This document shows, one piece after another, positions 82 through 19,165 of a stretch of 34,870 nucleotides of DNA. The DNA comes from a virus, in the IMG/VR virus record IMGVR_UViG_3300020438_000126, positions 1 through 34,870 of that record. One strand, given 5' to 3'. Made by a program: the position numbers and the translations under genes. The notes beneath the pieces are model-generated. The model was not told the DNA's origin, searched no databases, and saw nothing but the letters and a program-made list of their open reading frames with translations. Numbering within the stretch: the stretch's first letter is position 1; every line of letters starts with the position of its first letter.

Positions 82-140
82 TTGACAAACCCACAGATAG
101 ATCGTATACTGTATAAACAATAAGGGCAAAGGGCAACACA
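82..140 (+). promoter_or_regulatory. Promoter-leader cassette 1
   Basis: TTGACA (82-87), 17 bp spacer, TATACT (105-110): a consensus sigma70-type promoter. The leader AAGGGCAAAGGGCAA follows and ends at the ATG at 141. First of nine near-copies in the first 4.5 kb. Confidence 0.9.
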
Positions 141-346: not shown

Positions 347-410
347 TTGACAGCCTAGCATAATGGTGCTATAATATATACATATTAACAATTAGGGCAA
401 AGGGCAAAAT
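347..410 (+). promoter_or_regulatory. Promoter-leader cassette 2
   Basis: TTGACA (347-352), 17 bp spacer, TATAAT (370-375), then the leader TTAGGGCAAAGGGCA before the ATG at 411. It has the best -10 of the series and lacks the clear ACTGT dyad seen in cassettes 3, 5 and 6. Confidence 0.9.
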
Positions 411-992: not shown

Positions 993-1056
993 TTGACAAT
1001 TGCGTTAACCCCTGTTATACTGTTTGTATAAGTTAATAAAGCAATGAGGGCAAGTC
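993..1056 (+). promoter_or_regulatory. Promoter-leader cassette 4
   Basis: TTGACA (993-998), 17 bp spacer, TATACT (1016-1021). The leader contains TGAGGGCA (1045-1052) just before the ATG at 1057. This 8-mer is the exact complement of a hairpin loop at 2734-2741. Confidence 0.9.
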
Positions 1057-1388: not shown

Positions 1389-1552
1389 GCATCTGTCCAG
1401 AGTGTCATACTTTAGATAAAAACTTCTTCGCACCCAAGTGCCACGCATGTAATACTGAGGTTGGCTTCTTGATGCAGTGTGCTGCTAGTTTGGTATATAC
1501 TGCAACATGGGCGGTAGGAATTATTTTTCTTTTATGGCTATTTTTAGGTTGA
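1385..1552 (+). CDS. Zinc-ribbon membrane protein, 55 aa
   Basis: The N-terminus has two Cys pairs, CPEC (residues 4-7) and CHAC (about 19-22), typical of a small zinc ribbon. A single transmembrane segment rich in I, L, W and F ends the protein. The ATG at 1385 overlaps the previous stop by 4 nt, which is preferred over an upstream in-frame ATG at 1337 that would sit inside the membrane-protein gene. The next promoter begins inside its last codons (TTGACA at 1549). The product probably faces the cytoplasm with its zinc ribbon; the function is unknown. Confidence 0.75.
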   Translation: MSICPECHTLDKNFFAPKCHACNTEVGFLMQCAASLVYTATWAVGIIFLLWLFLG

Positions 1553-1615
1553 CAAGTAGCATGTTAGATCATATACTGTATATAACAGTTAGGCAAACAA
1601 TGAATGAGGGTTCAA
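1549..1615 (+). promoter_or_regulatory. Promoter-leader cassette 5
   Basis: TTGACA (1549-1554), 17 bp spacer, TATACT (1572-1577), perfect dyad ACTGT-ATATA-ACAGT (1575-1589). Two ATGs follow. The one at 1616 has GAGGG 7 bases upstream and is the likelier start; the ATG at 1604 would overlap the ribosome binding site. Confidence 0.9.
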
Positions 1616-2617
1616 ATGCAAAATATCAAAATAGTTGAAGGCACGTACAAGATCAGAGGTAACGACACAGACATGATGGGCTTAGTCTTTCCAATGGTCG
1701 AAGAATTTAAAGTAGGAGCCAAAGGCGGTTACGTAACCGTTGATGGTGCAGCAGTAAACGGTTTTCCGGACCGAAACATCAAAATTAAGGTGTCAGGCCC
1801 GGAGGGTTACGAGCTTGTTGGGGAGAATGTCCAAGCAACCGTTCGGGAAGAGTCAGACGCTGAAATTGTAGAGCGCATCCGAGAACGATTCGAAATGCTT
1901 AAGGACATGACCAAAGCCGTTAAGAAGGGAGACGTACGAGCAATGATCGTCTCCGGCCCTCCGGGCGTGGGCAAGAGCCACGGTGTCGAAGAAGTACTCG
2001 ACCGCTACAAGACTATGGAGTCGTTGGGCGCCGGAAAATCGTTCGAAGTGATCAAGGGTGCAATGAGCCCAATCGGACTATACTGTAAACTGTTCAAGAT
2101 GGCAGACAAAGGTAACGTTGTAGTGTTCGATGACTGTGACAGCATCTTCCAAGATGATCTGAGCTTGAACATTCTAAAAGCTGCTCTGGACTCCAAGAAG
2201 ACTCGAATGATTCACTGGAACACTGACAGCTTCAAACTACGCAACGAAGGTGTGCCAGATAGCTTCCGCTTTGAAGCAAGTGCAATCTTCATTACCAATA
2301 TGAAGTTCGACAAAGTCAAGGGCAAGTTGCGTGAGCACTTGAGTGCGCTAGAGTCACGCTGTCACTATATGGACTTGACCATTGACAGCGAGAAGGACAA
2401 GATGTTGCGTATCAAGCAGGTCACACAAGACGGCATGCTTGACTCATACGACATCGAAGATGAAACCAAAGAGGAGATTATGGACTTCATCGACATTAAT
2501 AAGAATCGCCTGAGAGAACTGAGTTTGCGCACAGTGCTCAAGGTAGCAGACTTGGCCAAAGCATTCCCTACTAAATGGGAAGCGATGGCTGAGAATACAG
2601 TGATGCGTCGAGCTTGA
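1616..2617 (+). CDS. AAA+ family ATPase
   Basis: A 333 aa protein. It has a Walker A motif GPPGVGKS (about residues 114-121), a Walker B VVVFDDCDS (about 168-176), and a following Asn in IFITN (sensor 1 position), so it is an AAA+ ATPase with a roughly 110-residue N-terminal domain of unknown type. It is by far the largest gene of the accessory block and has its own promoter. It lacks the features of the T4 clamp-loader gp44 that I would expect, so I do not call it that. A remodelling role on a nucleic acid or protein complex is likely, but the target is unknown. Its 3' end runs into the five-hairpin region at 2605-2801. Confidence 0.85.
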   Translation: MQNIKIVEGTYKIRGNDTDMMGLVFPMVEEFKVGAKGGYVTVDGAAVNGFPDRNIKIKVSGPEGYELVGENVQATVREESDAEIVERIRERFEMLKDMTKAVKKGDVRAMIVSGPPGVGKSHGVEEVLDRYKTMESLGAGKSFEVIKGAMSPIGLYCKLFKMADKGNVVVFDDCDSIFQDDLSLNILKAALDSKKTRMIHWNTDSFKLRNEGVPDSFRFEASAIFITNMKFDKVKGKLREHLSALESRCHYMDLTIDSEKDKMLRIKQVTQDGMLDSYDIEDETKEEIMDFIDINKNRLRELSLRTVLKVADLAKAFPTKWEAMAENTVMRRA

Positions 2618-2801
2618 GCCCTCACGCTCCGCTTACTGTATACAGCAGTCAAGGACCGCCCTCATCCGAAGGCTGCTGTACAAAGGACAAGACGGCTTAG
2701 ATCGTCAAGTCCACTAGATAATGCTTGAGAGTATGCCCTCACGCTCAACATTATCACCCTGGTCCTCACTAGTGTGCCCTCGCTAGTGGGGACTTTTTTT
2801 T
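2605..2801 (+). ncRNA. Five-hairpin RNA with GCCCTC loops
   Basis: Five consecutive hairpins can be drawn. H1: GCG..GAGC / GCTCCGC, loop 2614-2625. H2: TACAGCAG (2641-2648) / CTGCTGTA (2673-2680). H3: GGAC-AA-GACG (2685-2694) / CGTC-AA-GTCC (2703-2712). H4: GATAATG-c-TTGAG (2717-2729) / CTCAACATTATC (2744-2755). H5: 11 bp, 2762-2772 / 2783-2793, then T8. H1, H2, H4 and H5 each place GCCCTC in the loop (2618, 2658, 2735, 2776). It could be a processed 3' UTR, an independent small RNA or a protein-binding element. Its complementarity to the leader motif is described in the findings. Confidence 0.7.
2762..2801 (+). terminator. Rho-independent terminator after the AAA+ gene
   Basis: An 11 bp stem (GTCCTCACTAG with CTAGTGGGGAC, one G-U pair), a 10-nt loop TGTGCCCTCG, and eight T residues at 2794-2801. 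It closes the five-hairpin region; the next promoter starts 23 bases later. Confidence 0.93.
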
Positions 2802-2823: not shown

Positions 2824-2884
2824 TTGACAAACACTCAATTAGATCGTATACTGTATATAACAGTTAGGGCAAAGGGCACAGCAC
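2824..2884 (+). promoter_or_regulatory. Promoter-leader cassette 6
   Basis: TTGACA (2824-2829), 17 bp spacer, TATACT (2847-2852), perfect dyad ACTGT-ATATA-ACAGT (2850-2864), leader TTAGGGCAAAGGGCA, ATG at 2885. The most typical copy of the series. Confidence 0.93.
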
Positions 2885-3166: not shown

Positions 3167-3231
3167 TTGACAAACTCAACTTTAGATCATATAATGTATG
3201 TATAAGTTAAACAAAGCGAGGGCAAACGCAG
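3167..3231 (+). promoter_or_regulatory. Promoter-leader cassette 7
   Basis: TTGACA (3167-3172), 17 bp spacer, TATAAT (3190-3195). The leader contains GCGAGGGCA (3216-3224), an exact 9-nt complement of TGCCCTCGC (2775-2783) in the loop of the terminator hairpin upstream. ATG at 3232. Confidence 0.9.
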
Positions 3232-4089: not shown

Positions 4090-4130
4090 TAGTATACTGT
4101 ATATAACAATTAGGGCAAAGGGCAAAAACT
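4070..4130 (+). promoter_or_regulatory. Promoter-leader cassette 8
   Basis: TTGACA (4070-4075), 17 bp spacer, TATACT (4093-4098), imperfect dyad ACTGT-ATATA-ACAAT, leader TTAGGGCAAAGGGCA, ATG at 4131. The -35 lies inside the upstream coding region. Confidence 0.92.
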
Positions 4131-4412: not shown

Positions 4413-4475
4413 TTGACAAACTGAACTTTAGATCGTATACTGTATAGACACTAACAAATTAAGAGGGCTTCTTAA
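4413..4475 (+). promoter_or_regulatory. Promoter-leader cassette 9
   Basis: TTGACA (4413-4418), 17 bp spacer, TATACT (4436-4441). The leader has AAGAGGGCTTCTTAA before the ATG at 4476. GAGGGCT (4463-4469) is complementary to AGCCCTC (2617-2623) in the first GCCCTC hairpin. The AAGA/TCTT ends could form a small hairpin around the ribosome binding site. Confidence 0.88.
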
Positions 4476-4841: not shown

Positions 4842-4998
4842 CAGCTGGCTAGGCTGAAGTGCTACGCTGAACAACTAGTAAGCGTAGCCGACTAGTACAG
4901 GTACAGTACAGTTACAACACACTCGACCGCTAGACTGTATCGATACAAAGAACTGAGTGTGGGGAGAATCCTTAGTGTAACAGCTAGGGATTTTTTTT
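4842..4998 (+). ncRNA. Structured 3' region or small RNA
   Basis: No gene. Two hairpins precede the terminator: GCTACGCT (4861-4868) pairs with AGCGTAGC (4881-4888) around a 12-nt loop, and CACACTC (4918-4924) pairs with GAGTGTG (4955-4961). The second encloses the 12-nt palindrome TGTATCGATACA (4936-4947). The palindromic ACTAGT occurs twice (4874-4879 and 4891-4896), offering an alternative fold. It does not contain the GCCCTC loop motif of 2605-2801. Confidence 0.5.
4968..4998 (+). terminator. Rho-independent terminator of the accessory block
   Basis: ATCCTTAG (4968-4975) pairs with CTAGGGAT (4984-4991) around an 8-nt loop and is followed by a run of T residues to 4998. It ends the last cassette transcript. 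Confidence 0.9.
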
Positions 4999-5201
4999 GA
5001 CTTTAGAAAAAAAATATTTTCAAAAAAAAAATTTTCATTCTCGAGGGGTGGGGGGTATAGAAATCACCAGGGCGAAACTGTAAGTACTATGCTTAATGAA
5101 ACCGCGCAACCATTTTTTCTATCTCCAAAAACCAATTTGCTCGAATAGAATTTGGTTCTAAATTTTTTTGCGCACAATTTTTTTTACTCTATAGGGGGAA
5201 T
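4999..5201. other. Non-coding, A/T-tract rich spacer
   Basis: No gene seen. It holds several A and T tracts of 7-10 bases (about 5007-5035 and 5160-5190), a G-run GGGGTGGGGGG (about 5045-5055), and a weak inverted repeat AACCAA (5130-5135) / TTGGTT (5152-5157) followed by T-rich sequence. The repeat could act as a weak terminator for the minus-strand gene at 5202. A-tracts suggest bent DNA; an origin or attachment role is possible but unsupported. Confidence 0.45.
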
Positions 5202-6551: not shown

Positions 6552-6760
6552 ACAAATATTTAGCCAGGTTATATATGCACTTAATGAAACTGTAATAAGT
6601 ATTTGTATGATTAGATGGTACGATATAGTTTTCAGCATTTGGTATGCATGGCTCATACAATTTTCATTTTTTAACATAGGCATCACAGGTGGTGTTATGG
6701 CATATGCGCTATGGGTCATGTGGTGCGAATACTATTGCGTATGGAGAAGGAAACAAGAAC

Positions 6761-7384
6761 ATGGCTACTAACATCAATGGATTCTTTGTTGGTGAAATTG
6801 AACCCACAACAACTATAGCAGGATGCATTTCAATATACGAACGTGCATGGCCTAACCCTGAACAAACTGTAGCTAGAATAGAACAGGAGTGTGCAGACAC
6901 TGACAACTTGGTCAGCTGGCAACGTGCAGAAACCATAGGCAGAGGCGTACATCAAACAAGGCGCACCAATCTAAATCTAGGTATTACCTATCTAGCTGAC
7001 GTTGATGATAATGCTGTTATGCAGAACACACACAATCAAATGAACATGCTGCTCAACGCAACAGTTGAACCCTACTGTAAACGCATGGGCATAGAAGGTG
7101 ATACACGCTACGAAGACTACAGTCTACTCAAATATTCGGGCGGTCAAAACTACGGAGCGCACCACGACGGCAGCGGAACAAGCACAAGGATTGTAAGTGC
7201 TATCTGTTATCTCAATGACGACTATGAAGGTGGTGAACTTGAGTTTCCGCACTTTGGTGTAAAGATCAAACCACAAGCAGGTATGCTGATAGTGTTCCCC
7301 AGTAACTTTGCATATGCACACATTGCACATCCAGTCACTGACGGCACCAAGTATGCTATAGTAACTTGGATCAATGAAGTATGA
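6761..7384 (+). CDS. 2OG-Fe(II) oxygenase, prolyl 4-hydroxylase type
   Basis: A 207 aa member of the 2-oxoglutarate/Fe(II) dioxygenase superfamily. The Fe-binding facial triad is visible: H134-x-D136 in GAHHDGS and H190 in AHIAHPV, with K197 as the probable 2OG carboxylate ligand. The strand ICYLNDDYEGGELEF between them is typical of the P4Hc family, which hydroxylates prolyl or similar side chains using 2OG and O2. Start at 6761 (MATNING) follows AGAAGGA; an in-frame ATG at 6689 would overlap the minus-strand neighbour region. It is the first gene of an eight-gene operon and overlaps the next gene by ATGA. Confidence 0.9.
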   Translation: MATNINGFFVGEIEPTTTIAGCISIYERAWPNPEQTVARIEQECADTDNLVSWQRAETIGRGVHQTRRTNLNLGITYLADVDDNAVMQNTHNQMNMLLNATVEPYCKRMGIEGDTRYEDYSLLKYSGGQNYGAHHDGSGTSTRIVSAICYLNDDYEGGELEFPHFGVKIKPQAGMLIVFPSNFAYAHIAHPVTDGTKYAIVTWINEV

Positions 7385-7974
7385 TACACATAAATGAAAT
7401 CTTTCCACTGTTTGTTGCTACGCATACTAGCGAAGCTGATCTAGTTCCTGTACTAGCAGCGTGTCTTAGTATGGAACAACAGCTCGATAGTGTAACCAAA
7501 AGCAATGTAGGTGGATGGCAGTCACCTAATATAGAACTTACTGCTGCACCGTTTGATGTATTGATACCTAACATACTGGGCTGTCTACAGGGAGTTGTGA
7601 ACTACGGCAAATTAAATAATGGGTACACACTAATGAACAGCTGGATCAACATCAATAGGGCTGCATGTAATAATTCACCACATGTTCATCCTGACTCAAC
7701 AATTAGCGGAGTTGTGTATATTAATGTGCCCCAAGACAGCGGCCGGATACGTTTTTTAAATCCTGCTAGGACAGCAATAGCAAGCTATATTGATTCGCCA
7801 CAACACCAAGGGGACGTAGCACAAGGTCCATTTAGTGAAGTATGGGAGTATGAGCCAGTTGCAGGAGAGATACTGTTGTTTCCTAGTTGGCTAGAACACT
7901 ATGTAGAAAACAATAATAATGCTGACGGCGAACCTAGAGTAAGCATCGCATTTAACATCAAGGTACACGAATGA
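7381..7974 (+). CDS. 2OG-Fe(II) oxygenase-like, TIGR02466 type
   Basis: A 197 aa protein with the layout of the putative 2OG-Fe(II) oxygenase family TIGR02466. It has an N-terminal 'FP' start (NEIFPLF), SWININRAACNNSPHVHPDSTISG, a jelly-roll core, FPSWLEHYV (H173) and a C-terminal R186 in PRVSIAFN. The usual HxD is replaced by HxH (H101, H103), as in the three sister genes at 7971, 9923 and 10546. It overlaps both neighbours by ATGA, so it is probably translationally coupled. Substrate unknown; modification of a phage or host protein is possible. Confidence 0.85.
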   Translation: MIHINEIFPLFVATHTSEADLVPVLAACLSMEQQLDSVTKSNVGGWQSPNIELTAAPFDVLIPNILGCLQGVVNYGKLNNGYTLMNSWININRAACNNSPHVHPDSTISGVVYINVPQDSGRIRFLNPARTAIASYIDSPQHQGDVAQGPFSEVWEYEPVAGEILLFPSWLEHYVENNNNADGEPRVSIAFNIKVHE

Positions 7975-8567
7975 AAAGTAACACTTGGAATTTATTTCCT
8001 ACACCCGTAACTAGATTTACTGAGGTGTTTACTGCACAGCAACTACAAGATATCAATCAATATCTATCTACGCTGCGTAGTGGACCGCACAGTGCTATAG
8101 ACGGTGACGGTGTTAGTTCACACGATGAAACTACAGATATTATAAAAAGTATTACATCCAGTGTACCAGGTTGTCAAGACTTTAGTGATACTATACAGCA
8201 TATGCTAAATGAATATACATACACGTATGGCCTTGACCCAGTTGAGGTAACCAACAGTTGGTATAGTGTACAAAGACCGGGCAGCAGACTTGTAACACAT
8301 CTACATGCAAACAGTATTGTAAGTTGTGTAATCTATACACAAACAGACAGCGACAGCAGTAGAATATACTTTGATAATCCAAACAAAATGGTAGCCTATT
8401 GTAATCAAACATCGCATCCTACAGACTATAACTTTGAATACTTTTATATACAGCCTGAAGTTGGAGACGTACTAATGTTTCCTAGTTGGTTAACACACGG
8501 TAGTAAGAGCGAACATAATCAATCACAACAAAGAACTATACTAAGTTTTAACGCGAGGTACAAGTGA
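7971..8567 (+). CDS. 2OG-Fe(II) oxygenase-like, TIGR02466 type
   Basis: A 198 aa sister of the preceding gene, with the same order of elements: NLFPTPV near the N-terminus, NSWYSVQRPGS, H110-x-H112 followed by NSIVS, a core strand RIYFDNP, FPSWLTHG (H176) and R188 before TILSFN. Sequence identity to its neighbours is modest outside these motifs, so the copies are old or divergent. It begins in an ATGA overlap. Predicted Fe(II)/2OG-dependent hydroxylase; substrate unknown. Confidence 0.85.
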   Translation: MKSNTWNLFPTPVTRFTEVFTAQQLQDINQYLSTLRSGPHSAIDGDGVSSHDETTDIIKSITSSVPGCQDFSDTIQHMLNEYTYTYGLDPVEVTNSWYSVQRPGSRLVTHLHANSIVSCVIYTQTDSDSSRIYFDNPNKMVAYCNQTSHPTDYNFEYFYIQPEVGDVLMFPSWLTHGSKSEHNQSQQRTILSFNARYK

Positions 8568-9334
8568 TGTTTAAGAAAAAAGATATCGTTCTCGATTGCT
8601 ACACATACGTACCCTGGGTTTATGATCATGCTAAAATAAACTATGGTAACAAATACATGCCACAATGGTGGAAGGATACACCTAGCAGAACAAATAATGG
8701 CGACGATACAATACGAGTGTGTCAGGGGTTGATCGATTATTACAAATCAGGAATAGTTATTCCTAGTTGGTTTGAAATTGACTTTCATATTAACTCTAAG
8801 TATAATACCAAAGAGAATGCATACACTTGGGAAGCAAGTAACCCTGCTGTAAATACTGACGGTAGTCATTCATTTGACCAATGGGGATTATACAGTGAAG
8901 ACAACGGCAGTAATTTAAAATTTGATTCTCCGTGGGTATTTAAAACTCAAGAGCTTGTGCAATTTACTTGGACACAACCTACTTGGAGTATGCGTGATAA
9001 AATAGATCAAATAACAGTTTTACCTGCTGTAGTAGACTACAAGTATCAACACTGGACTAATATAAATTGGTTAGTTTTAAATAAAGACGATCCCAAAGAC
9101 ATTAATATTCCTTCATTAACTCCTATGGTTATAATGCATCCTATGACTGATCGTAATGTTATAATTAAGAATCATCTTGTTTCAAAAGAACAATGGAGTC
9201 GAATTGGTGAAGGAAGTGAATACATGTTTTTAAAAGGAAACAAAAATATCTATCAAAGTAAGAAACGTTTAATTGATAACGTTGAAAAGATAGAAGGATG
9301 TCCGTACATGAGTAAAGGAAAATTGGATGAATAA
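8567..9334 (+). CDS. Unknown protein inside the oxygenase operon, 255 aa
   Basis: No family recognised. A soluble protein very rich in aromatic residues, notably Trp, with motifs YMPQWWKDTP (about 30-40), a CQGLIDYY segment and IPSWFEIDFH. I recall proteins with 'PQWWK' segments in marine T4-like phages, of unknown function. Start taken at ATG 8567 (TGATG overlap with the previous stop); GTG at 8564 is also possible. It is the only gene of the eight without an oxygenase pattern: there is no HxD...H arrangement with a following R. It may be the substrate partner or a companion enzyme; this is inference from position only. Confidence 0.8.
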   Translation: MFKKKDIVLDCYTYVPWVYDHAKINYGNKYMPQWWKDTPSRTNNGDDTIRVCQGLIDYYKSGIVIPSWFEIDFHINSKYNTKENAYTWEASNPAVNTDGSHSFDQWGLYSEDNGSNLKFDSPWVFKTQELVQFTWTQPTWSMRDKIDQITVLPAVVDYKYQHWTNINWLVLNKDDPKDINIPSLTPMVIMHPMTDRNVIIKNHLVSKEQWSRIGEGSEYMFLKGNKNIYQSKKRLIDNVEKIEGCPYMSKGKLDE

Positions 9335-9926
9335 AAAATTTGCCGACTTAGGTTACTGTGTTGTAAAGAATGCAATAACACCTGAACTTCGAGACTTTAT
9401 AACTCAATATACATTCTTTGATGAGATGCAAAACGAATCTAAAGATGACATTCAAGTTCCAAATGCATTTAGCAAGTATGCTGATCCTGCAATGGAAACA
9501 GTGTTAACAACTTTATTACCTACTATGGAAAAAGAAACAGGACTTGAACTAGACCCAACATATTCTTATTATAGAATTTATTACCCTGGAGATAGATTAG
9601 AAAAACATAAGGATAGACCAAGTTGTGAAATATCATGTACACTATGTTTTAACTACAACTATGAAAATTATGAATGGCCTATCTATATGGAAGGTGAAGG
9701 CATTGTTTTAGAGCCCGGCGATATGGTCATATATAAAGGCATGGATCTAGAGCATTGGCGTAATACATTTGATATCAAAGACGACGATGCTTGGCACGTA
9801 CAAGGATTTTTTCATTACGTAAACAAAAAAGGTTCGTGTGCTGAATGGAAATGGGACAAGCGTGATAGTATTGGATCATTAAACAAACAAACAACTACGC
9901 CTAGTTATATAGAGTATACAAAATGA
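9327..9926 (+). CDS. 2OG-Fe(II) oxygenase
   Basis: A 199 aa protein with a clean 2OG-oxygenase core. YYRIYYPGDRLEKHKDRPSC provides H94-x-D96, the strand EISCTLCFNY follows, and LEPGDMVIYKG precedes EHWR with the distal H143 and R145. The N-terminus, FADLGYCVVKNAITPEL, is typical of small phage and bacterial dioxygenases. It overlaps the previous gene by 8 nt and the next by ATGA. It belongs to a different subfamily from its TIGR02466-like neighbours, with the canonical HxD triad. Substrate unknown. Confidence 0.9.
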   Translation: MNKKFADLGYCVVKNAITPELRDFITQYTFFDEMQNESKDDIQVPNAFSKYADPAMETVLTTLLPTMEKETGLELDPTYSYYRIYYPGDRLEKHKDRPSCEISCTLCFNYNYENYEWPIYMEGEGIVLEPGDMVIYKGMDLEHWRNTFDIKDDDAWHVQGFFHYVNKKGSCAEWKWDKRDSIGSLNKQTTTPSYIEYTK

Positions 9927-10549
9927 ATATTGAATTAATTTTTCCTACTGCAATAGCTGTTGTAGATAACAATGTATTTGACGATCACCCAGCACTTTTA
10001 GATCTCGAATATAATGTTAATAACGACAGTTCTAACGGAATGTTTGAACAGACTGCAGATACATATGTACTAGATAATCATGTTCCGAATCTAAGAAATT
10101 GGTTACAACAACAATTAGATAATTTTTCAAAGTATTCTCTATCTACTGATCAAAAATTAAAATTTACACAGAGCTGGTGTTTAAAACATAACAATACAAA
10201 ACAAGAAGTATTTCCACATTCACATCCTAACAGTATCATTAGTGGAGCTTATTATATAGCAGCCGATGAAGATAGTGCTAAACTAAAATTTCATAGGACA
10301 GGTGTTTCAACATATCCAAGTATACAATGGGAAATGGATTCTAACAAGTCAAAGGATGCTCCGTGGAACTGGGACTGGCAGAAAATTTCTGTACATACAG
10401 GACGTCTAGTTTTGTTCCCTTCACAACTTATGCACTCAGTTGAAAGTGAAATGCACAACAGTGGAATACGATGTGTATTAAGTTTTAACACATGGTTTGA
10501 AGGCAGTATTGGATCTGACCATATGTTTAACAAGTTAGGTCCGCTATGA
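9923..10549 (+). CDS. 2OG-Fe(II) oxygenase-like, TIGR02466 type
   Basis: A 208 aa protein with the family layout: IELIFPTAI at the N-terminus, SWCLKHNNTKQEVFPHSHPNS with H99-x-H101, ISGAYYI, FPSQLMHSV (H171) and R183 before CVLSFNTWF. Of the four HxH copies it is among the closest to the family pattern (HSHPNS, SGAYY). It overlaps both neighbours by ATGA. Predicted Fe(II)/2OG oxygenase with unknown substrate. Confidence 0.86.
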   Translation: MNIELIFPTAIAVVDNNVFDDHPALLDLEYNVNNDSSNGMFEQTADTYVLDNHVPNLRNWLQQQLDNFSKYSLSTDQKLKFTQSWCLKHNNTKQEVFPHSHPNSIISGAYYIAADEDSAKLKFHRTGVSTYPSIQWEMDSNKSKDAPWNWDWQKISVHTGRLVLFPSQLMHSVESEMHNSGIRCVLSFNTWFEGSIGSDHMFNKLGPL

Positions 10550-11160
10550 TTGAACAATGGTTTCCTACACTAATATATTATGATTTTTTAGATGAAATTG
10601 ATAACCAATCTTTAGCTAAACGTGCTTATCAACTGCACGATGAATTGAATAAAGATGTTCACACGCAATGGAACTGTGATACATGGAATAGTCTTAACAC
10701 AAATTTGTTTTTTAAAGATGACGATATTGATGATGTTATTGAACAGTTAGTTAATACAACAATTTTACACACAGAAAAATATGCTGCTGAATATGATGCA
10801 GATTTAGAAAACTATAAAATTACATGCACAGATTTTTGGTTTAATATTGCCCAACCAATGAACTATCAAGAATATCATCAGCATCCAAACAATCATTTTA
10901 GTGCTGTTTACTATGTAGACGCACAGCCTAATTCAGGTAACATTAGATTTAAAAGTATGGATAGTATTGCAACAGGTAATACTATACCTACAAAGGTGCC
11001 GCTTGAAAGAATATCCGGATCAACAGAAACATGTTTTTATGAGCCGCAACCTAGCAAACTATTAATCTTTAAATCTAATCTACTACATATGGTAGAAAAG
11101 AATCTTAGTGATAGTGATAGAATTAGTGTAGCAATGAATTTTAGAATGGAGGCAAAATGA
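10546..11160 (+). CDS. 2OG-Fe(II) oxygenase-like, TIGR02466 type
   Basis: A 204 aa protein: EQWFPTLIYYDFL start, FWFNIAQPMNYQEYHQHPNN with H111-x-H113, FSAVYYV, then LLIFKSNLLHMVE (H181) and R192 in DRISVAMNF. The usual FPSWL before the distal His is changed to FKSNLL, the most divergent of the set. ATGA overlaps on both sides. Predicted oxygenase, substrate unknown. Confidence 0.84.
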   Translation: MIEQWFPTLIYYDFLDEIDNQSLAKRAYQLHDELNKDVHTQWNCDTWNSLNTNLFFKDDDIDDVIEQLVNTTILHTEKYAAEYDADLENYKITCTDFWFNIAQPMNYQEYHQHPNNHFSAVYYVDAQPNSGNIRFKSMDSIATGNTIPTKVPLERISGSTETCFYEPQPSKLLIFKSNLLHMVEKNLSDSDRISVAMNFRMEAK

Positions 11161-11672
11161 TAGAAGTAATTGATAACTGTGTGTCACAAGAACATCTACA
11201 ACATATACAAAATATTATGCTTAATAATTCATTTCCGTGGTTTTTTAGTAATACCAAAGTAGGAAATAATTTGCCTTCACAACAAGAAAATTATGATTGT
11301 CAATTTATACATTTATTTTATCACAACATGAAACCAAGTAGTAATTACGGAGATATTATTGAACCTATACTAGATATTTTGCAACCAAGTGCTTTGGTCA
11401 GGATAAAAGCAAATCTAACTACTTGCGCCGATAAAGTTTATAACTATCCTCCACATGTAGACTTTTTTAATTTTAACGGAAAAACTGCAATATTCTATCT
11501 AAACACAAATAATGGATATACAGAATTTGCTACTGGAGAAAAAATTGAGTCTGTTGAAAATAGACTTGTAATATTTGATGGAAATATGGAACATTCAGGC
11601 ACTACACACACCGATGCTAAAACAAGAGCTGTAATTAATTTTAACTATTATACCTGGTTAACGGCTGAGTGA
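11157..11672 (+). CDS. 2OG-Fe(II) oxygenase, 171 aa
   Basis: A compact protein with a full canonical triad: H100-x-D102 in YPPHVDFFNF, H146 in DGNMEHSG and R157 in TRAVINFNYYTW. It resembles short phage dioxygenases more than the TIGR02466-like group. It is the last gene of the operon and runs 32 bases into the end of the convergent minus-strand gene at 11641. The operon therefore ends with overlapping convergent 3' ends and no visible intrinsic terminator. Confidence 0.9.
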   Translation: MIEVIDNCVSQEHLQHIQNIMLNNSFPWFFSNTKVGNNLPSQQENYDCQFIHLFYHNMKPSSNYGDIIEPILDILQPSALVRIKANLTTCADKVYNYPPHVDFFNFNGKTAIFYLNTNNGYTEFATGEKIESVENRLVIFDGNMEHSGTTHTDAKTRAVINFNYYTWLTAE

Positions 11673-18615: not shown

Positions 18616-19165
18616 CCTTTTCGCATATTAAATTCATATGCACTACAACAGCCATTGCATAAGAAACAGCATGTGCTTTCTTAAAGTAATAACTATTGTC
18701 CGTTGGTTTAATCCAAACTTCCTTCATCACCTTTTCCCAAGTTTCTCCGACTAAGTGTCTTTTGGCTGGACGTATCATTGCTAGTACTGCCGCTAGTTGT
18801 TCTATTGTTTTCGGACGCATTGTCTTTAATATAGTTCCATGTCCTGCGACGTGAAATACTAGACTGCTGAAATCGTCGTGTTCGAGGAGTTCCCATTGTG
18901 GTTCCTTAGTCATTAGTTGTTGAAGATGTTCCTCATTTGTAACATCTTTGTATATACTTACATTTAAAAAATCTAATTTAAAATAGCCACGTTCGTCAGC
19001 AGTCTTGTGTTCAATAGTACTTAGATTATCTACTGGGTTGTGCGGAATCTCAGTAGCATATACTCCAGTATTATGTTTTTTGCCCGTGTTTAATTTTGCC
19101 ACACGATGTGTAAGTTTAGATAGTATTACATCTCGATCAGCAAAATCTATATCAATATCAGGCAA
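18605..19165 (-). CDS. Miniature DNA polymerase III alpha-like protein
   Basis: A 186 aa protein carrying, in order, the catalytic-core motifs of bacterial DnaE. MPDIDIDF at residues 1-8 has D5 and D7 at the positions of E. coli D401 and D403. TGVYATEIP (33-41) matches the HAGGVVIAP segment, and YFKLDFL (61-67) has D65 at the third catalytic Asp (D555). FHVAGHGTILKTMRPKTIEQ with LAMIRPA (104-134) matches FQLESRGM...ALFRPGP, and FKKAHAVSYAMA (161-172) matches FNKSHSAAYALV. The loops between motifs are drastically shortened, and no PHP, tau-binding or beta-binding parts remain. DnaE is about 1,100 aa. Activity is uncertain. The gene starts inside the deformylase end (8-nt overlap) and is last in its operon. 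Confidence 0.85.
   Translation of the reverse strand: MPDIDIDFADRDVILSKLTHRVAKLNTGKKHNTGVYATEIPHNPVDNLSTIEHKTADERGYFKLDFLNVSIYKDVTNEEHLQQLMTKEPQWELLEHDDFSSLVFHVAGHGTILKTMRPKTIEQLAAVLAMIRPAKRHLVGETWEKVMKEVWIKPTDNSYYFKKAHAVSYAMAVVVHMNLICEKVSS

Follow-up and report, generated by a model that had tools for sequence, protein, structure and literature searches.

Loops of a hairpin array behind a phage AAA+ gene very likely pair with early-gene leaders of the same phage

We describe, in a group of large phages known only from uncultured material, an array of RNA hairpins at the 3' end of an early gene for an AAA+ ATPase; the loops are complementary to the ribosome-binding sites (RBSs) of the phage's early genes. 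Comparison of relatives shows that the array is conserved, that the loop motif keeps one orientation, that loops and leaders co-vary and that the putative regulon is confined to the early region. Based on these results, we consider it likely (probability of roughly 0.72) that the array is a multi-loop 3' untranslated region (3'UTR) RNA that base-pairs with the RBSs of early genes, among them its own host gene, and represses these genes; no transcript data are available.

Hairpin array and early leaders of the window

The window, that is, the whole stretch of DNA analysed, comprises 34,870 bases (IMG/VR record IMGVR_UViG_3300020438_000126, positions 1-34,870). A run of small + strand genes occupies the first 4.9 kb, and the majority have their own promoter: nine sigma70 promoters of the form TTGACA-TATACT/TATAAT, with 11-12 of 12 consensus matches, are found there, and the early-gene leaders are ~24-32 nt long. 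The AAA+ protein encoded in this run matches the phrog_1250 profile (E = 3e-82) and also T4-like nrdC.10 homologues, which places it in that family. Its gene probably begins at 1616 rather than 1604, because alignments with relatives begin at about residue 4-7 of the longer open reading frame, and its stop codon lies at 2615-2617. Because a promoter scan of the window found none of comparable quality from the AAA+ promoter up to the array, the simplest and in our view probable reading is that the array forms the 3'UTR of the AAA+ message; a free RNA species is inferred.

The array (~2595-2801) consists of five hairpins, and GCCCTC occurs in four of them, at 2618, 2658, 2735 and 2776 (Table 1). 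The folding energy of region 2605-2805 is -77.3 kcal/mol compared to -55.3 +/- 3.9 kcal/mol for dinucleotide shuffles (z = -5.6), none of 200 shuffles being as stable. Four copies of GCCCTC in ~190 nt of one strand are far above chance, since the whole window contains only 12 on both strands together (4.5 expected). The motif lies clearly in the loop of hairpins H2, H4 and H5. H1 starts ~20 nt within the AAA+ coding sequence and is ambiguous: its minimum-energy fold pairs the first G and C (2 of 6 motif bases), and an alternative fold leaves the entire motif in a 12-nt loop. The original prediction, made without database searches, had placed five hairpins after the AAA+ gene, GCCCTC in four loops and a terminator at the end of the array. 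The hairpin count and the terminator (H5 followed by T8) held, except that H1 in fact begins inside the gene, and the loop placement held for all but the ambiguous H1. Its three exact complements, between loops and the leaders of genes 1057, 3232 and 4476, are all correct. Extra hairpins resembling H3 are found in near relatives (for example, L009, L013 and L042), with loops CAUUAGAA, UAAGAACU or CAUCAAGA; hairpins of this type, which lack GCCCTC, may possibly have a different partner.

Table 1 Features of the AAA+/array unit and leader targets in the window
Feature	Positions	Strand	Description
Leader target AAGGGCAAAGGGCA	123..135	+	Precedes gene 141
Leader target AGGGCAAAGGGCA	394..406	+	Precedes gene 411
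Leader target TGAGGGCA	1045..1052	+	Precedes gene 1057; exact complement of 2734-2741
Sigma70-type promoter of AAA+/array unit	1549..1577	+	TTGACA-17-TATACT, 11/12 consensus matches
AAA+ leader with target motif TGAGGGTTCAA	1605..1615	+	Complementary to H1 loop over 11 positions, including one G-U
AAA+ ATPase gene	1616..2617	+	T4 nrdC.10 family, phrog_1250, clamp-loader-like
Hairpin 1 (H1)	2595..2641	+	Outer stem ATACAGT/ACTGTAT; GCCCTC at 2618-2623; AAA+ stop codon inside
Hairpin 2 (H2)	2641..2680	+	Loop CCGCCCUCA, type T2
Hairpin 3 (H3)	2685..2712	+	Loop CUUAGA; GCCCTC absent
Hairpin 4 (H4)	2717..2755	+	Loop AUGCCCUC
Hairpin 5 (H5), intrinsic terminator	2761..2801	+	14 pairs then T8; loop UGUGCCCUCG, type T1; hairpin itself 2761-2794
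Leader target AGGGCAAAGGGCA	2866..2878	+	Precedes gene 2885
Leader target GCGAGGGCA	3216..3224	+	Precedes gene 3232; 9 nt with H5 (2775-2783), -18.8 kcal/mol
Leader target AGGGCAAAGGGCA	4112..4124	+	Precedes gene 4131
Leader target GAGGGCT	4463..4469	+	Precedes gene 4476; exact complement of 2617-2623

The complementary motif is present in eight of the nine promoter-linked leaders of the window, the exception being that of gene 732. Calculated without loop or leader structure, duplexes between loops and motif leaders mostly reach -10 to -19 kcal/mol, compared to about -6 to -8 kcal/mol when these leaders are paired with the canonical anti-Shine-Dalgarno (anti-SD) sequence; the AAA+ leader itself (UGAGGGUUCAA) gives -17.1 kcal/mol with H1. 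Pairing should hide the RBS, since the element involved spans the SD core (GAGG or GGAG) just 5' of the start codon, within a few bases of it. Leaders of the early cluster pair with the loops far better than do 27 other gene starts of the window (P = 2e-5), but when the loops were shuffled the advantage was only moderate, with 6 of 200 shuffles giving equally low energies. Two further points weigh against our explanation: the free loops measure 8-10 nt, which makes for short duplexes, and the leader motifs are predicted to be only moderately accessible (probability of being unpaired, 0.2-0.8). The compelling evidence for loop-leader pairing is comparative and does not come from the window alone.

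Three other parts of the window may be noted. At positions 1-73, a tRNA-Leu(TAA) gene is truncated by the contig end to its 3' part, which is 88% identical over 59 bases to its counterpart in EBPR podovirus 3. The interval 4842-5200, 3' of gene 4476, has no convincing gene and includes a terminator-like repeat, aatccttagtgtaacagctagggatttttttt. Leaders in the gene run at 6689-11672, whose first gene matches 2OG-Fe(II) oxygenases and whose neighbours look similar by eye, are without the motif.

Arrays, leaders and early regions of related contigs

A first-round search with the AAA+ protein yielded 42 viral loci (L009-L050), and GCCCTC hairpins directly follow the AAA+ stop codon in all 42 of these relatives (clade A). 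Loop types UGUGCCCUCG, CCGCCCUCA and UAUGCCCUCA recur, and stems differ even among close relatives. Across 54 arrays, GCCCTC was counted 135 times and GAGGGC 0 times, and 89% of motif bases were unpaired compared to 40% for all array positions. For the T1 loop type (33 distinct hairpins), stem positions 1-3 were 100% paired using 3-4 pair types, and pairing dropped to 0.39-0.52 once the alignment was slid by one base; stems of the T2 type covary as well (13 distinct hairpins). The H1 stem reaches into the gene in relatives, where the 3'UTR pairs with the codons ACN GTN. Of 31 distinct sequences in which a partner of the synonymous letter N was recognised, 26 show covariation between the two (T-T 18, A-A 6, G-G 1 and C-C 1 versus 5 other); 22 sequences without a recognised partner were left out of this count. 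When a 16-mer loop pattern was searched in viral contigs, every true array found lay behind an AAA+ gene or the remnant of one, the remaining matches being chance coding hits, and a 15-mer pattern searched in genome_contigs gave chance hits only.

Two contigs depart from this arrangement. In L083 (2810-3090), the array is complete and does not differ from that of L058, but the AAA+ gene before it is reduced to roughly its last ten codons, and the sequence upstream of this remnant is unrelated; either recombination preserved the array and not the gene, or the contig is a chimaera. The 144-kb contig L034 has a degenerate array of two hairpins, with no terminator hairpin seen, and plain AAGGAG leaders, loop and leader motif apparently having been lost together. 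Homologues of the AAA+ protein also occur in the T4-like phages Acj9 and RB18, in phiA8-29 and in PA5oct, in the last of which an array cannot fit behind the gene because the next gene is only 44 bases away.

Between clades, the loops change and the leaders change with them. Both other clades were found among more distant AAA+ relatives. In clade B (L285-L291), a sister clade, the hairpins occupy the position seen in clade A, but their loops are AUUCGCUCC, AUCCUCGCUCC or UUACCCUCGCUC; the UUCGCUCC of its loops goes with GGAGCGAA in its leaders. Clade C (L297, L303, L311, L312 and others) has no array directly behind the AAA+ gene; CCG-AUUCGCUCC-CGG hairpins are found there in the 3'UTRs of two other nearby early genes, and the leaders read GGAGCGA. 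These are single hairpins (L311:11888-11930 and 19020-19065, with equivalents in L303, L312 and L340), one after a 90-aa gene and the other after a 100-aa gene whose stop codon is in the stem. A maximum-likelihood tree of the AAA+ proteins separates A, B and C, with weak support for A as a single group. An unsupervised count of 6-mers before gene starts returned GAGGGC/AGGGCA in clade A and GGAGCG/GAGCGA in clades B and C, to which the loops UGCCCUC (A) and UUCGCUCC and AUUCGCUCC (B and C) correspond, and the AAA+ leader of nearly all relatives carries the motif of its own clade.

We compared loops and leaders on the basis of matches of at least 7 nt, taking loops from predicted folds (clade C loops were typed from sequence). 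Own loops matched 0.30 of clade A leaders compared to 0.007 for C loops, 0.29 of clade B leaders compared to 0.016 for A loops and 0.19 of clade C leaders compared to 0.007 for A loops; shuffled loops matched 0.02-0.03. Clades B and C have a common motif, and their loops and leaders cross-match. Separation of A from B is incomplete, with clade B loops matching 8% of clade A leaders over 7 nt because some of them contain CCCUCGCUC. The leader letters outside the SD core switch with the loops (GCA versus CGAA): GAGGG is mostly followed by C and then A in clade A, and GGAG by CG in about half of cases in B and C. These results show that co-variation maintains complementarity to the target start regions, which is one of the criteria for a base-pairing, trans-acting antisense RNA; the others, a separate stable RNA, action in trans and repression of translation, are inferred here.

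Some caution is needed in counting the events involved. No correlation was found within clade A between the seventh base, next to the core, of loops and leaders, so the co-variation rests on switches between clades, possibly very few. Contig L209, with GAGGGAA leaders yet GCCCTC loops, counts against the proposal. In L230 the terminator loop is UUCCCUC and most leaders are GAGGGAA, possibly a small-scale instance of loop and leader changing together; L209 has such leaders without that loop. Nonetheless, the refutation test named in the original prediction, conservation of loops while stems change freely, was passed in relatives, as was the harder test that loop changes in a related clade be accompanied by leader changes. 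Its proposal that the loops bind the start regions of many early genes is supported comparatively as regards pairing, but the action in trans and the inhibitor or sponge outcome that it added remain inferred, and a free RNA as opposed to an AAA+ 3'UTR has not been shown.

Motif leaders are confined mainly to early-type regions in the four large contigs used for a regulon test (116-364 kb). Beside the hairpins, they precede 13 of 42 genes in G008 (7 of 407 elsewhere), 15 of 37 in G009 (9 of 326 elsewhere), 12 of 43 in G003 (12 of 422 elsewhere) and 7 of 30 in G007 (0 of 137 elsewhere), with P values for this clustering of 3e-6 to 5e-11. Sigma70-type TTGAC-TATA promoters accompany 45 of 75 motif leaders versus 110 of 1,369 others (odds ratio 17, P = 3e-27), and in G003 and G008 the gp23-type capsid genes are located well away from the motif-leader region. 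The early regulators RegA (PF01818) and RegB (PF10715) were not found in G003, G006, G007, G008 or G009, which may be incomplete; as positive controls, both were detected in RB18 and RegA in Acj9. PA5oct was likewise found to have neither protein, and no array directly 3' of its AAA+ gene.

Proposed mechanism and rival explanations

We propose that the array is a multivalent antisense RNA at the 3' end of the early AAA+ message. Its loops (GCCCUC here) would pair with the GAGGGCA or AGGGCA element covering the RBS of promoter-linked early leaders. As early transcripts accumulate, copies of the array, on AAA+ mRNA or cut free, would rise in number, hide the RBSs and shut down early translation; the AAA+ message, with a target in its own leader, would also be shut down, a delayed negative feedback. 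The pairing itself is strongly supported by comparison and very likely. Repression, its timing, action in trans and processing or release as a separate stable RNA are inferences.

The rival hardest to set aside, though unlikely, accepts the pairing and changes its outcome: array-leader complexes might protect, store or co-locate early messages or create RNase III sites. The comparative data show complementarity and co-variation but not the outcome, and several loops per RNA could link several messages. Against this, the SD core is covered near the start codon, making occlusion the simplest result, and the leaders have no strong inhibitory structure that pairing could open. We consider it very unlikely that the resemblance is chance SD complementarity, with C-rich loops that merely look like RBS complements in ordinary 3'UTR or terminator hairpins. 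The CCUC/GAGG core is indeed plain SD complementarity, and, judged on the window by itself, 6 of 200 sets of shuffled loops perform equally well. However, this moderate result becomes clear across clades (19-30% for own loops versus 2-3% for shuffled ones), the switching letters lie beyond the SD core, and loop identity survives complete turnover of the stems.

Two further explanations invoke a protein. In one, the motif would be a protein-binding site in double-stranded DNA, a single operator that leaders and loops show on opposite strands, and the clade switch would be a change of protein specificity. Such a site would appear as GAGGGC or as GCCCTC depending on the strand, so co-variation alone cannot exclude this, but an operator requires neither the fixed orientation seen in arrays (135 versus 0) nor a hairpin, and the motif sits in loops with covarying stems; we judge this very improbable. 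The alternative offered in the original prediction, a CsrA-like or other RNA-binding protein that the loops titrate and that has the leaders as a second site of action, has in its favour the form of the array, with identical loops on several hairpins as in a CsrB sponge, and loop types that extend beyond GCCCUC (UGUGCCCUCG and CCGCCCUCA). It is disfavoured, to the point of being very unlikely, because loops and leaders carry complementary rather than identical sequences, and the change of loop to UUCGCUCC was accompanied by a complementary change in the leaders.

Known systems and what the array would mean

The closest likeness is to the alpha-r14 'cuckoo' RNAs of alpha-proteobacteria (for example, NfeR1), in which three hairpins with highly different stems present an identical unpaired anti-SD motif, CCUCCUCCC, to many targets (PMC10746234). 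The array shares the repeated anti-SD motif in unpaired regions and the variable stems, but instead of CCUCCUCCC it carries GCCCUC, replaced by UUCGCUCC in sister clades. Moreover, alpha-r14 is a free bacterial sRNA with a generic anti-SD, whereas the array lies in the 3'UTR of a phage gene and its motif reaches beyond the SD, is specific to the phage's own early leaders and changes with them between clades. LhrC of Listeria and other sRNAs with UCCC loops, such as RNAIII of S. aureus, block translation at G-rich starts through redundant C-rich sites, which in LhrC include the terminator loop (PMC4132741). The array also has several such sites, one of them in its terminator loop; LhrC and RNAIII differ in being host-encoded, with few targets, another motif and no co-evolving leader element common to a regulon. 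Neither the array nor those of eight relatives matched any Rfam family (the presence of alpha-r14 in Rfam was itself unchecked). Because the alpha-r14 motif is absent and nothing matches in Rfam, we describe the array as working like alpha-r14 and LhrC without membership.

CsrB and RsmZ sponges carry the same motif as the mRNA targets of their protein. The array resembles them as a set of hairpins with one repeated loop motif, but its loops are the complement of the leaders and the arrays contain no GAGGGC, contrary to what a sponge would require. In T4, RegA competes with ribosomes on ~30 early mRNAs and RegB cuts GGAG in early leaders (PMC3014915), the same job of early-gene shut-off as proposed here, but done by proteins. 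In line with the original prediction, which knew of no phage RNA of this kind, no phage counterpart was found described in the open-access literature searched, and a review of phage-derived sRNAs (PMC12197685), searched by key terms only, contains none. Thus, what is probably new is the self-targeting and the early-regulon code that co-evolves with the leaders, the architecture and mode being known from alpha-r14 and LhrC.

A bolder reading, which could as easily prove wrong as right, is that a large T4-like phage lineage exchanged RegA/RegB early shut-off for a self-encoded pairing code, made of an extended anti-SD array and an early-only leader element that were re-coded together at least once (GCCCUC/GAGGGC versus UUCGCUCC/GGAGCGAA). 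In this scenario, H1, which spans the stop codon, would couple folding of the array to translation of its own message. Replacement is only suggestive, because the contigs may be incomplete and PA5oct lacks both proteins without having an array.

Most of the phage regulatory RNAs described to date act on one or a few targets, or on host sRNAs. If our main reading is true, one RNA element would address the whole early regulon of a phage through a common leader code, and would do so in dozens of environmental contigs. It would offer a possible answer to how early translation is shut off in large phages without RegA and RegB, may be a source of orthogonal translation controls and, as a natural case in which an RNA was re-coded along with its many targets, would bear on how regulons evolve.
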